Positions 9,971-17,927 of a DNA stretch of 40,732 bases are shown in pieces. Source of the DNA: Dehalococcoidia bacterium. Its GTDB lineage: Bacteria; Chloroflexota; Dehalococcoidia; Lucifugimonadales; Lucifugimonadaceae. The notes beneath the pieces are model-generated. The model was not told the origin of the DNA. It ran no database searches and saw only the letters and a list, made by a program, of their open reading frames with translations. Numbering within the stretch: the first letter of the stretch is position 1; each line of letters opens with the position of its first letter. The position numbers were made by a program, and so were the translations under genes. The stretch spans positions 1 to 40,732 of the forward strand of contig PBNX01000019.1 in assembly GCA_002723375.1 (NCBI GenBank). The letters run 5' to 3'.

Positions 9971-10745
9971 AAATCTCTTTATATAATTTAGGAAGTATAT
10001 CAGTTGAAGATCCTCTCAAAATTATCTCACATTCGGAAGACAGCTTAGTATCATTAATATTTACCTCGATTAGTTTAGCCCCATCAGACTTTGCTATCCA
10101 AGAAAGCCCTGCAGCAGGCCTAACAGTAGATGAGCTGCCAACTATTATTAATAAATCGCATTCTTTGATTGCATTTTTAGAGTTCTTTAACATTAACTTA
10201 GGTATAGGTTCTCCAAACATAACAGAATCGTACTTTATAACTCCGCCACAATTACTACATGGCAATGGTTTTTCAAAAATAGGAGATGAAAATCGGTATC
10301 TATTCTCACAATCTACACATCTTAAATAATTTCTATTTCCATGGATCTCTATAACATTTTTACTACCAGATTCGATATGAAGGCCATCAATATTTTGAGT
10401 AATAATATGATTAATTTTTCCTAATTTCTGAATATCACATATTGCATAATGAGCATCATTCGGTTTTGCTTTTTCTATAGCTCTCCTCAGTTCCATTACG
10501 TATGGAGATCTTTGATGATTGATTTCTCTATCCCACCATGAATCCTTATTTTTTATGAATTCAGAAAATGCATTCATTTTAGGTTTGCCAAATCTTGCCC
10601 ATAAACCTTCAGTGCCTTGGAAAGTTGGAATTCCACTATCAACTGAAATCCCAGCACCAGTCATTAAAACCACTTTTTTTGATTTAGAAATTAATTCTGC
10701 AGATTTAACTATGTTAGATTTGATTTTATCTAATTTATTTGTCAA
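9960..10745 (-). CDS. SIR2 family NAD-dependent protein deacylase (sirtuin)
   Basis: VVLMTGAGISVDSGIPTFQGTEGLWARFG, HIITQNIDGLHIESG, zinc CVDC...CSNC, IIVGSSSTVRPAAGL. TTG start preceded by GGAG. Confidence 0.87.
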   Translation of the reverse strand: MTNKLDKIKSNIVKSAELISKSKKVVLMTGAGISVDSGIPTFQGTEGLWARFGKPKMNAFSEFIKNKDSWWDREINHQRSPYVMELRRAIEKAKPNDAHYAICDIQKLGKINHIITQNIDGLHIESGSKNVIEIHGNRNYLRCVDCENRYRFSSPIFEKPLPCSNCGGVIKYDSVMFGEPIPKLMLKNSKNAIKECDLLIIVGSSSTVRPAAGLSWIAKSDGAKLIEVNINDTKLSSECEIILRGSSTDILPKLYKEISSL

Positions 10746-11856
10746 TTATTTCTCCATTTTTTACGAAAAATATTTTACCATTAAATTTGGGATTTTTTAC
10801 TAATAATTTCTCGTCAGGTGCAGTTAAAATAACTTGATCGTAATTATCTATGTAATCCATAACAGTACCTCTTCTAACTTCATCAAGCTCTGAAAGAATA
10901 TCATCGAGTGCAATAATCGGTGAATTGTTTATATTATTTTTTAGAGCATTAGCTTCACCTAATTTTAATGCTAATGCTATGGTACGAATTTGCCCTCTAG
11001 ACGAAAATTCTGAAGAAGGATGACCATTTATATTAATGTCAAAATCATCTTTATGAGGACCATAAAGAGTTGAGCCTAAAGAAATTTCTCTTTTTATATT
11101 CTCAGCGAATATAGCCTTTAATGAATCATTGTTTAAATTATCCAGATCATCATAAGATGCCACAAAGTTAATATCTAGATTCTCATCTCCAAATATAAAA
11201 TTAGGAAAAATCTTTAAAGTTTCATCTGTGATTTTATAAAGTTTTTCTTTCCTTCGTTTACTTATAATTAATCCATCTTCAATTATCTTTTCTGTCCAAA
11301 ATTCTAATTCTAATTTTGATGACTTTCCGATTTTTATATCTTTTAGTACCTTATTTCTACTCTGCAAGACTTTATTATATCTTTGCAAAGCTTTTAGATA
11401 GGAAAAATCTTGCTGAGAAATATGAATATCTAGGAACCTTCTTCTTGCAATTGGGCTACCTGTTATGATACTTAAATCTTTTGCTTCAAATAGAACTACA
11501 TTTAACTTTCCAATAAAATCTATAGAGCTCACACTAGAACTGTTAAAAGAATAGGTTTTTGATACTCTCTTTGTTTCTTTATCAACTTCGATATTTAACA
11601 TAAGGTCTGATGCACTATTATTGTAGTGAGCAATCCCTTTCAAATATGAAGAATAAGATCCTGAATCCTTATTTACTAAATTAATTCCCTTAGATGTTCT
11701 GTAAGATTTACCAATTGAAAGAGCATAAATAGCTTCAAGTAAGTTACTTTTTCCGTGTCCATTTCTTCCAATAAAATAATTTGATCCTTTTTCAAAATCT
11801 AATGAAACATCATTAAAATTTCGAAAATTATTTATCTGGAATTTAGAAATATAAAT
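10735..11856 (-). CDS. recF: DNA replication/repair protein RecF; 5' end extended beyond the ORF track, putative ATT start
   Basis: Upstream in-frame translation (I/M)YISKFQINNFRNFNDVSLDFEKGSNYFIGRNGHGKSNLLEAIYALSIGKSYRTSK carries the Walker A motif and aligns with the usual RecF N terminus (compare MYIQNLELTSYRNY of B. subtilis). The track start (TTG 11643) would delete Walker A. C-terminal SRGQIRTIALALKLGEA and ALDDILSELD are RecF motifs. SD GAGG lies 5 nt before ATT 11856-11854. Confidence 0.82.
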   Translation of the reverse strand: MYISKFQINNFRNFNDVSLDFEKGSNYFIGRNGHGKSNLLEAIYALSIGKSYRTSKGINLVNKDSGSYSSYLKGIAHYNNSASDLMLNIEVDKETKRVSKTYSFNSSSVSSIDFIGKLNVVLFEAKDLSIITGSPIARRRFLDIHISQQDFSYLKALQRYNKVLQSRNKVLKDIKIGKSSKLELEFWTEKIIEDGLIISKRRKEKLYKITDETLKIFPNFIFGDENLDINFVASYDDLDNLNNDSLKAIFAENIKREISLGSTLYGPHKDDFDININGHPSSEFSSRGQIRTIALALKLGEANALKNNINNSPIIALDDILSELDEVRRGTVMDYIDNYDQVILTAPDEKLLVKNPKFNGKIFFVKNGEIIDK

Positions 11857-11863
11857 ATTAACC

Positions 11864-12841
11864 TCAACTTAATTTTTCTAAAGATTTAACATTTTCTTTA
11901 TACCAATTAATTGTCTTGTCTAATCCAGATTCAAGGCCCTCTAAAGGATTCCAATTAATTAATTTCTTGGAATTTGATATATCAGCCGAAGTTCTATTTA
12001 CATCCATTTGGTTCTGAGGTTTATAAATTATTTTAGCTTTTTTTTCTAACTTATTTTCAATTATTCTTACAGCAGTAATTAATTTATCAGGACTTGATTT
12101 TCCTAAATTAATTAAATTAAATCCTTTTAACTTTGAGCTGTCATAAGTTCCTCTACATACATCAGAAACGTAAGTAAAGTCCCTCTCTTGGCTTCCATCT
12201 CCATATATCGTAATTGGCTTATCTTTATAAATTAAGTTAATAAATTTTAATATACTCATATCAGGTCTTCCAGCTACTCCATACACTGTAAAATACCTCA
12301 AAACACAGATATTTAATCTATATAAATTAGAAAATAATTCACATATTTTCTCTGCATTTAATTTTGAACTAGCATATGGTGAAATTGGATTTAAAGAGTC
12401 ACTTTCCTTGGAAAAATATCCTTTAGAAATATCACCATAAACACTCGAGGTTGATGAAAATACCAAAGATTTTGCTTTAATTGACTTGTGTAATTGAAGT
12501 ATATTAAAAGTGCCTCTTAAATTAACATTGTAATATTTATCAGGATTCTCAATAGATTTTCTTACTCCAGCAAGCCCAGCTAAATGAAATATACTTTCTA
12601 CATTACCAATTTTATTCAATTCTTTAGCAATAGATTCAACTTGATATTTATCAGAAATATCAGCTTTGAAAGTTTCTATTCCAATTTTCACTGATTCTTT
12701 ATATCTCAATTTTCTCAATGAATCAGAATTTTTATCTATATCTACCCCAATTACTCTGTGGCCCCTTTCAATTAAAGATTTAGAAAGATTGAAGCCAACA
12801 AACCCCAAAGAACCTGTAATTACATATATACTTTTATTCAT
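11864..12841 (-). CDS. NAD-dependent epimerase/dehydratase (extended SDR, UDP-sugar epimerase-like)
   Basis: YVITGSLGFVGFNLSKSLIERGHRVIGVD, HLAGLAGVRKSIENP, YASSKLNAEKIC, RYFTVYGVAGRPDM, DFTYVSDV. Confidence 0.85.
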   Translation of the reverse strand: MNKSIYVITGSLGFVGFNLSKSLIERGHRVIGVDIDKNSDSLRKLRYKESVKIGIETFKADISDKYQVESIAKELNKIGNVESIFHLAGLAGVRKSIENPDKYYNVNLRGTFNILQLHKSIKAKSLVFSSTSSVYGDISKGYFSKESDSLNPISPYASSKLNAEKICELFSNLYRLNICVLRYFTVYGVAGRPDMSILKFINLIYKDKPITIYGDGSQERDFTYVSDVCRGTYDSSKLKGFNLINLGKSSPDKLITAVRIIENKLEKKAKIIYKPQNQMDVNRTSADISNSKKLINWNPLEGLESGLDKTINWYKENVKSLEKLS

Positions 12842-14271: not shown

Positions 14272-14922
14272 ATGAAATCAACAAACATTCAAATTGAAAA
14301 AAACTTCATTAATTTAGTTAATACTGTAGCAAAATTAAGATCAGACCAGGGGTGCCCTTGGGATCTAGAGCAAACTTCTGAATCATTATCTCAATATATT
14401 CTTCAAGAAACTTATGAAGTACTAGAATGTATAGATAATAATGACTCGAAAGCTTTGAAAGATGAGTTAGGAGACCTACTATTTCAGATACTTATACAAA
14501 GTCTAATCCGTGATGAGAAAAAAGAATTTAGCATATCTGACGTATTAGAATCTATTAACATTAAATTAATTAATAGGCACCCTCATGTTTTTAAAGACAA
14601 TAACAATAATATTGATTCAAAAAATGTTGTAAAAAATTGGGGGAGAATGAAAAAAGAGGAAAGTAAAAATGATAAATCTTATATAAAAAATATAACTAAG
14701 ACACTACCGTCTCTTTCATTTGCATATGAACTATATAAAAAAACTTCTGATATAAATATCGAATTAGTAAATACAGATAAATATGATAATTTTTCTAAGG
14801 AGCAAATTATCAATATCTTATTTGAATTAACCTCTTCAGCCTCGAAAAAAAATATAGATTTAGAAAATGAATTCAGGAAATACATCAAAGCCAAACAATT
14901 AGATATAATTAAAAAGATATGA
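14272..14922 (+). CDS. mazG: MazG family nucleotide pyrophosphohydrolase
   Basis: LRSDQGCPWDLEQTSESLSQYILQETYEVLECID, LKDELGDLLFQILIQSLI, NRHPHVF...WGRMKKEE. Confidence 0.88.
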   Translation: MKSTNIQIEKNFINLVNTVAKLRSDQGCPWDLEQTSESLSQYILQETYEVLECIDNNDSKALKDELGDLLFQILIQSLIRDEKKEFSISDVLESINIKLINRHPHVFKDNNNNIDSKNVVKNWGRMKKEESKNDKSYIKNITKTLPSLSFAYELYKKTSDINIELVNTDKYDNFSKEQIINILFELTSSASKKNIDLENEFRKYIKAKQLDIIKKI

Positions 14923-16244
14923 ATAAACAATCTTTAGTAAAACTAAATCATATATTCCCTGAAAAGACAGGAATAAATAAAATTGGGAACTTAGAAATAG
15001 GTGGATTTGATTTATCTGAATTAGTTTCAGAATATGGATCTCCATTGTATATTTATGATGAAAAAACAATCAGGAATTGTGCAAGATCCTTTTTAAATGA
15101 ATTTAAATCTAAATATAACAATATGCATGTTTCCTACTCTTCCAAAGCTTTTATTAATCCTGCATTAGTAAAAATATTAAATGAAGAAAACTTAGGCATA
15201 GATGTTGTTTCTGGTGGTGAATTAGAAGTGCTAATAAGATCTGAATTTCCTATGGAAAAAACTAATTTTCACGGAAATAATAAAAGTGAACACGAACTAA
15301 ATAAGGCTGTAAAAAATAATATAGGTCTAATAACAATTGATAGTTTTTATGAACTTGATATTCTAGATGAAATTTGCAAAAAAAATAAAACTTCGCAAAA
15401 CATTACTCTTAGATTATCTCCTAGCGTAGATCCTCATACTCATGAACTAACTTCAACAGGAATACTAGATACTAAATTTGGATTCTCTATAGAAACTGGA
15501 GCTGCAAAAAAAGCTTTAAATGTAGCGAGTTCAAAAAATAACTTAAATCTAAAAGGTGTACATTTTCATCTTGGTTCTCCAATATTTGAATTAAAGCCAT
15601 ATTCCGAAGCAATTAACTACGTCTTTAAATTTTTAGAAAAAAATTATCCAAAAAATAATAAATTAGAAATATTCAATGTGGGAGGTGGATTCGCTGTTTC
15701 ATACAATCAGGATGATCCAACAGTAGATATAAATTTGTATGCAAACACAATATGCGAAGCAGTTAACAATAACATTACAAATCTTGGAATAGATCCTCCA
15801 GAACTAGTTATAGAGCCAGGAAGAGCAATAGTTGCTAGATCAGGGGTTGCAATATATACAGTTGGAGGAATAAAGAACATTCCAAATCTTAGGACATATG
15901 TGAGTGTAGATGGAGGAATGGCTGATAATATAAGGCCAGCTCTTTATGGTTCAAAATACACTGCCCTATCAGTAAATAAAGCAGGAATGAAACATGACAA
16001 GTTAGTTACCATTGCAGGAAAATATTGTGAAACAGGAGATAAATTAGTAGAAAATGTGCTTCTTCCTAACCCTGAGCCTAAAGACTTAATTGCAATTCCT
16101 GCTTCAGGTGCCTACAACAGTTCCATGTCAAGCAATTACAACGTAAGTTTAAGGCCAGCAATACTGCTTATTTCTGAGGATAAAATAAAAATAATAAGGA
16201 GGCGTGAAACTTATGATGATGTCCTTATTACAAGTGAAATTTAG
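14919..16244 (+). CDS. lysA: Diaminopimelate decarboxylase
   Basis: YGSPLYIYDEKTIR, VSYSSKAFINPALVKIL, GIDVVSGGEL, GVHFHLGSPI, EPGRAIVARSGV, CETGDKL, PASGAYNSSMSSNYN. Confidence 0.88.
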   Translation: MNKQSLVKLNHIFPEKTGINKIGNLEIGGFDLSELVSEYGSPLYIYDEKTIRNCARSFLNEFKSKYNNMHVSYSSKAFINPALVKILNEENLGIDVVSGGELEVLIRSEFPMEKTNFHGNNKSEHELNKAVKNNIGLITIDSFYELDILDEICKKNKTSQNITLRLSPSVDPHTHELTSTGILDTKFGFSIETGAAKKALNVASSKNNLNLKGVHFHLGSPIFELKPYSEAINYVFKFLEKNYPKNNKLEIFNVGGGFAVSYNQDDPTVDINLYANTICEAVNNNITNLGIDPPELVIEPGRAIVARSGVAIYTVGGIKNIPNLRTYVSVDGGMADNIRPALYGSKYTALSVNKAGMKHDKLVTIAGKYCETGDKLVENVLLPNPEPKDLIAIPASGAYNSSMSSNYNVSLRPAILLISEDKIKIIRRRETYDDVLITSEI

Positions 16245-16256
16245 CTGGAGGACACA

Positions 16257-17276
16257 ATCTTCTACTGGGAAACGTTAGGACAACAAAGAATAACTGAAAG
16301 TCTATATAAAATTTACAAAGAAAATAATATTCCTAATTCATTAATTTTATATGGAGAAAAAGGTATAGGCAAAATGTCTCTTGCTAAAGATTTCGCTAGA
16401 TTAATTAATTGCAAAAAAGATGATATTGATGAACCAATACTATGCAATTGTTTATCATGCGAAAAGATAAATAACAAGAAACATCCAGATTTTACAGTAA
16501 TAGAAAAATCTTCAATGTGCTCTAATAATTCGTGCTGCAAATCTTCTAATAGTTCTGCAATAAAAAATTGTGTTGTATCTGAAAATATTATAAGTAAATC
16601 AAAATTTAGCCCTTTTATGAGTAATTATAAAGTTGTTGTTGTTAACCAGGCTAACTATTTAACAAAAGTATCAGCAGAAAGCTTACTAAAAACCTTAGAA
16701 GACATTAATAGTAATTTTATAGTCATTCTTTTAATAGAAAATCTTTATGATCTTCCTGAAACTATTATTTCAAGGTGCCAAACTTGGAAATTAAATAAAA
16801 TATCCGAAAAAAAAATTTTGGATATATTATCAGAAAGCCATCCAGAAAAACAAAAACAAATTTTAGAGATAATGTCTTTTGGGTCTCCGACATTAGGAGA
16901 AGCCACTGAAATGCTAAATGATTCAATTTTCTTTGAAGAAAGACAAGAAGGCCTTAGAAGGATCGTAAAAATTATAAACTCACCTATGTCAGATAAATTA
17001 AACTATTCAAAAGAATTAACTCAACTTTATAGAAAAGACAAAGAAAGGGTTCTGTATGAATTGAAAATATGGAAAAATTTATTTAGAAAAATATTAAAAA
17101 CAGAAGATATGAATGAAGATCTAGAAACTATATCAATTATGAGCCCGATAAAAAAGGCAAATAAATTAGGAATTAAAAAAAATATCCAAAATATATTAAA
17201 AACAGAAGATAATCTTAAATTTAATGGGATGCCTTCTTTAGTTTTTGATAATTTTATAATTAATTTAGAGGCTTAA
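16257..17276 (+). CDS. holB: DNA polymerase III delta-prime-like subunit; 5' end extended beyond the ORF track, putative ATC start
   Basis: Upstream in-frame sequence (I/M)FYWETLGQQRITESLYKIYKENNIPNSLILYGEKGIGKMSLAKDFARLINC restores the P-loop and delta-prime N terminus lost if ATG 16374 is used. NCLSCEKINNKKHPDF, YLTKVSAESLLKTLED, ISRCQTWKL follow. GGAGG (16247-16251) lies 5 nt before ATC 16257. Confidence 0.75.
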   Translation: MFYWETLGQQRITESLYKIYKENNIPNSLILYGEKGIGKMSLAKDFARLINCKKDDIDEPILCNCLSCEKINNKKHPDFTVIEKSSMCSNNSCCKSSNSSAIKNCVVSENIISKSKFSPFMSNYKVVVVNQANYLTKVSAESLLKTLEDINSNFIVILLIENLYDLPETIISRCQTWKLNKISEKKILDILSESHPEKQKQILEIMSFGSPTLGEATEMLNDSIFFEERQEGLRRIVKIINSPMSDKLNYSKELTQLYRKDKERVLYELKIWKNLFRKILKTEDMNEDLETISIMSPIKKANKLGIKKNIQNILKTEDNLKFNGMPSLVFDNFIINLEA

Positions 17277-17927
17277 ATGATTATTACAATTGATGGAGCA
17301 GCAGGAACAGGTAAAACTACAGTAGGAATTTTAACAGCCAATAGATTAAATTTTAGCTTTCTTGATACCGGAAAAATATATAGGGCTTTTACTTTAAAAC
17401 TTATAAAAGATTCCATTCAATTAAATGAAGAAGAAATAATAAAAAATCTTAATAAAACAGAAATCCATTATTCGTATGACAATCAAAAGGAGTTTATTTT
17501 TTTAGATAAAATTGATGTTTCAAATGAAATTCTCTCTAAAGAAGTTGAAAAAAGTGTCTCTTTAATTTCTAAAATTCCTGAAGTAAGGAATAAAATGACT
17601 GCACTTCAAAGATCGATAGTAAATAATAAGAATTTTGTTGTTGCAGGTAGAGATATTGGGACTGTGGTGCTACCAGAGGCAGAAGTTAAAATATTTTTAA
17701 TTGCATCTTTAGAGGAAAGAGCAAAAAGAAGGCTTGCGGAAAGAAAAGATCAAACTTACTTAGATATAATAGAATCTATGAAAAATAGAGATAATATCGA
17801 CTCTACTAGGAAAATAGCCCCATTAAAAGCACCTAAAAATTCATTGATTATTGACACGGAAGGCTTAAATATCATAGAAGTAAGTAATAAAATTATCAAA
17901 GAAACAGATAATGAATATTCTATATAA
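17277..17927 (+). CDS. cmk: Cytidylate kinase
   Basis: IITIDGAAGTGKTTVG, FLDTGKIYRAFTL, VVAGRDIGTVVLPEAEVKIFLIASLEERAKRRLAE. Confidence 0.88.
   Translation: MIITIDGAAGTGKTTVGILTANRLNFSFLDTGKIYRAFTLKLIKDSIQLNEEEIIKNLNKTEIHYSYDNQKEFIFLDKIDVSNEILSKEVEKSVSLISKIPEVRNKMTALQRSIVNNKNFVVAGRDIGTVVLPEAEVKIFLIASLEERAKRRLAERKDQTYLDIIESMKNRDNIDSTRKIAPLKAPKNSLIIDTEGLNIIEVSNKIIKETDNEYSI

Follow-up and report, generated by a model that had tools for sequence, protein, structure and literature searches.

To our knowledge, natural AUU or AUC start codons are known for very few genes. In Escherichia coli, infC, the gene for IF3, begins with AUU and is subject to autoregulation by its own product. The selectivity at work is that IF3 rejects AUU, AUC and AUA (together AUN in what follows), which it does not do with AUG, GUG and UUG (PMC4611024). 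The E. coli pcnB gene also has an AUU start, as quoted in a later paper (Binns and Masters 2002, cited in PMC13009471). In Staphylococcus aureus, the AUA of infC, the AUU of cvfC1 and the AUA of ccpN are conserved, are accompanied by an extended Shine-Dalgarno (SD) sequence and give about 10% of the activity of AUG (PMC13009471). For Listeria, the ATT start of infC and the ATC start of rnhC have been confirmed experimentally, and non-canonical starts are fixed in 6 of 2265 conserved genes (PMC13068326).

The window analysed here, 40,732 nucleotides long, comes from an uncultured marine SAR202 bacterium, represented by a metagenome-assembled genome of the Dehalococcoidia (Chloroflexota). This genome is referred to as G000, and other G numbers denote genomes of relatives. 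A preliminary description of the DNA had placed the start of holB at an ATC codon 5 nt behind a GGAGG, and both the coordinates and the spacing proved right (Table 1). The holB frame matches TIGR00678 (E=1.3e-36, 126 bits) from residue 19 of a 343-aa open frame, with the P-loop included in the match; the curated cut-off of 180.6 is reached neither by this protein nor by its G006 orthologue (120 bits). The gamma/tau chains of solved clamp loaders match as well, and the product is a delta'/gamma-tau AAA+ clamp-loader protein. A separate dnaX-like ORF of 528 aa, giving a 31% identical match to holB, lies on another contig (G000:C4). Since the cut-off is missed, the name delta' is based on the best hit, the size and the existence of this separate dnaX.

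Table 1. Features of the holB and recF loci in the window (SD, Shine-Dalgarno sequence).
Feature	Position	Strand	Basis or remark
recF	10735..11856	-	TIGR00611, 291 bits, cut-off 172
recF start codon ATT (AUU)	11854..11856	-	aligned with outgroup ATG/GTG/TTG at exactly that residue
recF SD, GAGG	11862..11865	-	sequence; overlaps TGA stop of upstream gene (11864-11866)
lysA (diaminopimelate decarboxylase), 5' neighbour of holB	14919..16244	+	TIGR01048, 438 bits, cut-off 297.9
lysA stop codon TAG	16242-16244	+	sequence; 12 nt before holB start
CTG in holB frame	16245-16247	+	sequence; overlaps SD
holB SD, GGAGG	16247..16251	+	sequence; kept in 7/7 genus genomes
Spacer ACACA, SD to start codon (5 nt)	16252-16256	+	sequence
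holB start codon ATC (AUC)	16257..16259	+	position of N-terminus; ATC/ATT at same residue in genus
holB, DNA polymerase III delta' subunit, 339 codons + stop	16257..17276	+	TIGR00678 best match, gamma/tau matches, separate dnaX
P-loop GEKGIGK	16353..16373	+	translation; lost if ATG 16374 is taken as start
First in-frame ATG, rejected as start	16374..16376	+	directly behind P-loop; 38 preceding codons with dN/dS 0.05-0.16
cmk, directly 3' of holB stop	17277..17927	+	TIGR00017, 206 bits, cut-off 135.6

When the holB frame is read through from the lysA stop to the ATG at 16374, no ATG, GTG or TTG is encountered. The stretch downstream of the ATC at 16257-16259, IFYWETLGQQRITESLYKIYKENNIPNSLILYGEKGIGK, reaches to that ATG, and the translation bears out the earlier argument that a start there would cut the P-loop from the protein. 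Codons 2-39 have a dN/dS of about 0.05 with respect to the nearest relative and of about 0.14-0.16 with respect to the next two, indicating purifying selection on a protein-coding sequence.

Conservation of the start was assessed in the seven genomes of the genus in which holB was found; these, like the others of the genus, derive from uncultured organisms and are incompletely assembled (completeness of G000, 59%). The start residue is encoded by ATC in G000, G002, G005 and G008 and by ATT in G003, G006 and G007, so that the third base alternates between C and T and is never G. All seven have a GGAGG or GGAGGG as SD, 4-6 nt from the start codon. None has a canonical start near the AUN codon, the only one in G003 being an ATG 16 codons upstream, inside lysA. 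The open frame ahead of the codon varies in both length and sequence between species. Since identity between the most distant holB proteins of the genus falls to about 34-37%, the AUN codon must be long-lived, even though its third base has changed. Relatives outside the genus begin holB with a canonical codon, in many cases at a different residue; G023 is ambiguous.

The preliminary description had also drawn attention to a second AUN start in a replication or repair gene within 5 kb, and this too is borne out: recF, on the opposite strand, starts with ATT behind a GAGG. The phyletic distribution of this start is much broader than the genus. ATT is found in seven of the eight recF genes of the genus, the exception being the ATG of G003. 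In the rest of the family a canonical codon is missing from the N-terminus in 12 of 12, ten of which have ATC, ATT or ATA at the exact residue. AUN starts make up 9/22 in the remaining families of the order and 3/25 in the remaining orders of the class. Among 19 sequences from other classes of the phylum there is no AUN start; 18 carry ATG, GTG or TTG at exactly this residue of the alignment and the other a GTG three codons earlier, which shows the alignment to be well calibrated. As judged from these alignments, an AUN recF is characteristic of much of an order, gains or losses included. Among the papers searched, none links either recF or SAR202 to AUN starts.

When compared with the described systems, holB resembles E. 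coli infC in having a near-cognate AUN start behind an SD, in a lineage whose own infC is also without a canonical start (AUA in G000). It differs in lying outside the initiation machinery, so that putative control by IF3 would act in trans. With pcnB, whose weak AUN start keeps its level low according to the work as cited, it shares the nature of a housekeeping nucleic-acid enzyme, although gene and phylum are different. The AUC of Listeria rnhC and the AUU of its infC offer a parallel both in the fixation of AUC in a DNA replication or repair gene and in the mere handful of such genes per genome; the fixation there is species-wide, whereas AUN is genus-wide for holB and extends over much of an order for recF. 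Conserved AUN starts with strong SDs are also seen in S. aureus ccpN (AUA) and cvfC1 (AUU), but the products there are a repressor of transcription and a small protein, not replication proteins, and the starts were mapped experimentally.

The rarity of such starts was assessed by a census of about 2 Mb, made up of stretches sampled from six genomes of the genus and covering about half of G000. It took in 1531 genes with a homologue in another genome; for 1205 of these, belonging to 334 families, a homologue exists on the other side of the deepest split within the genus. Pairs were limited to that split, since near relatives align upstream of genes; close pairs were then compared using a dN/dS-like filter. 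Homology starting well before any ATG, GTG or TTG on both sides was seen for holB, recF, a transporter behind fabI and some shadow ORFs; for infC it was seen on one side only, and proS was added by the close-pair comparison. Some 4 of the 334 G000 genes sampled thus have AUN starts, an incomplete figure in that the census detects only genes with a sampled orthologue and without a chance canonical codon nearby. Nearly all families tested keep ATG, GTG or TTG. The small number of AUN starts indicates that they are gene-specific and do not reflect a general tolerance. The preliminary description had suggested either lineage-wide tolerance or regulatory use: the first does not hold, with only infC, recF, holB, proS and a doubtful transporter recovered from the sampled stretches, while gene-specific and probably regulatory use is supported. 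The genome-wide enrichment of ATT, ATC and ATA behind GGAGG that it had proposed to look for is absent (0.94, 0.73 and 1.06, respectively), in a test of little power given that most GGAGG are intragenic and that even ATG reaches only 1.16.

Among the additional genes, proS, encoding proline--tRNA ligase (G000:C12:17163; L084:17163-18860, plus strand), has an ATT start behind AGGAGG. ATT is present in eight of ten genus genomes, behind strong SDs such as AGGAGG, and ATG, with no visible SD, in G006 and G007. ATT is seen again in the proS of the distant G075. The infC start is ATA in G000 and a canonical start is missing in most of the genus, as is also the case for infC in several other bacteria. 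The transporter, major-facilitator-like and directly behind fabI (G005:C12:225857-227137, minus strand; orthologues in G002, G008, G006 and G007), lacks a canonical start upstream of the first helix. In G002, G005 and G008 a conserved ACG is preceded, at a distance of 4 nt, by an SD-like (A)GGRGG; no SD is seen in G006 and G007, and the status of the transporter as a gene with a non-canonical start is doubtful. In one genome, G006, a folP-like ORF (L123:10905) seems to start with ATT behind GAGGTGA. Two further candidate families (2540 and 2675) turned out to be shadow ORFs on inspection. Two others, the N-terminal regions of an epimerase and an rsmD-like ORF, showed no clear SD and stayed unsupported.

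AUN starts have unusually strong SDs. Across the genus genomes sampled, 20 of 25 AUN starts have an SD matching over 5 nt or more, vs 122 of 485 well-placed canonical ones (p=4e-8, with related sequences counted separately), and in G000 alone the proportions are 4/4 AUN genes and 20/115 canonical (Fisher p=0.0013). Such a difference is to be expected of weak AUN codons that require support. An initiator anticodon arm of the standard CAU type is present in G001, G005 and G009, while the initiator tRNA of G000 was not found in the part of the genome assembled. No initiator-like tRNA with a GAU anticodon was found; the pattern matches retrieved for one gave no tRNA prediction.

Our reading, which we consider well supported and probably correct, is that holB is translated from the AUC at 16257 with the support of GGAGG, and that selection keeps this codon as a low-output, IF3-sensitive setting of the infC and pcnB kind. 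It is built on the observations that the frame is coding, that the position, the AUN codon and the SD are all conserved and that such starts are rare; from these we infer the use of fMet-tRNA, the low yield, the sensitivity to IF3 and the selective reason. The initiator fMet-tRNA, with its CAU anticodon, would pair imperfectly with AUC, and the strong, well-spaced GGAGG would anchor the 30S subunit and so partly offset the weak pairing. Discrimination by IF3 against AUC would make the holB yield low, and lower still when IF3 is abundant, as for E. coli infC and pcnB. Selection would maintain AUC because delta' is needed in few copies, and the same device may serve infC (AUA), recF (AUU) and proS (AUU) but few other genes of the lineage. 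A regulatory or dosage-limiting use is probably the best reading of the AUN starts here.

The genes flanking the start raise the question of whether translational coupling is involved: ribosomes terminating on lysA might stay near, rebind GGAGG and restart at AUC, tying holB output to lysA. The end of lysA is 12 nt from the holB start in G000 and G002 and 16 or 22 nt in G003 and G006/G007, and in G005 and G008 the stop and start share one base (TAATC; L004 and L005, around position 1500). With AUC in place of AUG, TAATC corresponds to TAATG, a common form of overlap between stop and start. Similarly, recF of G000 begins 7 nt past the stop of the upstream gene, and re-initiation in E. coli depends on the IF3 level (PMC2268962). 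Against coupling, family members G010, G011, G016 and G018 have an AUN recF but no long ORF that ends in the 60 nt upstream of it, and the same is true of infC; an AUN start in this lineage therefore does not require a coupled neighbour. We regard coupling as the explanation for holB as somewhat unlikely, though it may act alongside the weak start; given that lysA and holB adjoin, or almost do so, in each of the seven genomes, it may add to the use of AUC.

It is quite improbable that the IF3 of the lineage is simply relaxed, making AUN starts cheap and leaving them to neutral drift. The preliminary description had recommended inspecting infC for altered discrimination residues, and such changes do exist: throughout the family IF3 has lost Arg at the positions equivalent to E. 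coli 112 (Lys) and 116 (Thr, Ser, Gln, Gly, Ala or Phe, all non-basic), positions at which IF3 of other families in the order keeps basic residues (infC loci L034-L052). R129 is variable in the family too, but likewise in Thermus. The share of AUN starts is also higher here, at about 4 of some 334 sampled G000 genes, than the 6/2265 in Listeria (PMC13068326). Drift should, however, strike many genes rather than leave nearly every family tested with ATG, GTG or TTG, and the strong SDs at AUN starts are what weak codons would call for. Both R112 and R116 are kept in G068 and G087 and their recF is still AUN, showing that the change at these positions is not required. Retention of AUA by infC itself is as expected if IF3 still discriminates. 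The substitutions, read from sequence comparison, are best treated as a suggestive lead with no tight link to AUN starts.

Very unlikely indeed is a start at the CTG at 16245, or readthrough from LysA into HolB across the TAG. The CTG is in frame and holB of G000 is in the lysA frame but, as had already been recognised, the codon overlaps the SD; moreover it is present only in G000 and G002, being missing in the other five genomes, where the lysA stop is at another distance and mostly in another frame (G005, G008, G003, G006 and G007). Lastly, a sequencing or assembly error concealing a true ATG, conceivable in a metagenome assembly with ATC one base away, is excluded by the agreement of seven separate genomes on two different codons; the preliminary description, too, had argued against a random error. 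Two of these genomes are public records as well, with the same bases (JAAZYI010000014.1, a Dehalococcoidia MAG, and VFGU01000012.1, SAR202 cluster OSU_TB34).

What is new here is the identity of holB, recF and proS as users of AUN starts, along with the depth of their conservation. The selective, weak-start reading of holB can be taken further, in a proposal that we put forward as unlikely but worth stating: the AUN starts of infC, holB, recF and proS might constitute a small IF3-controlled set in SAR202, in which the ratio of IF3 to 30S subunits, reflecting translational capacity, would determine in trans how much of the replication and repair proteins is made, recF being controlled in this way across much of an order. 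In practical terms, gene finders limited to ATG, GTG and TTG truncate AUN genes, so that the P-loop of delta' and the N-terminus of RecF would be lost both within the genus and in the order. For the biology of these bacteria, a conserved AUN set in replication, repair and tRNA charging provides natural tests of dose setting by weak starts and of its link to IF3.
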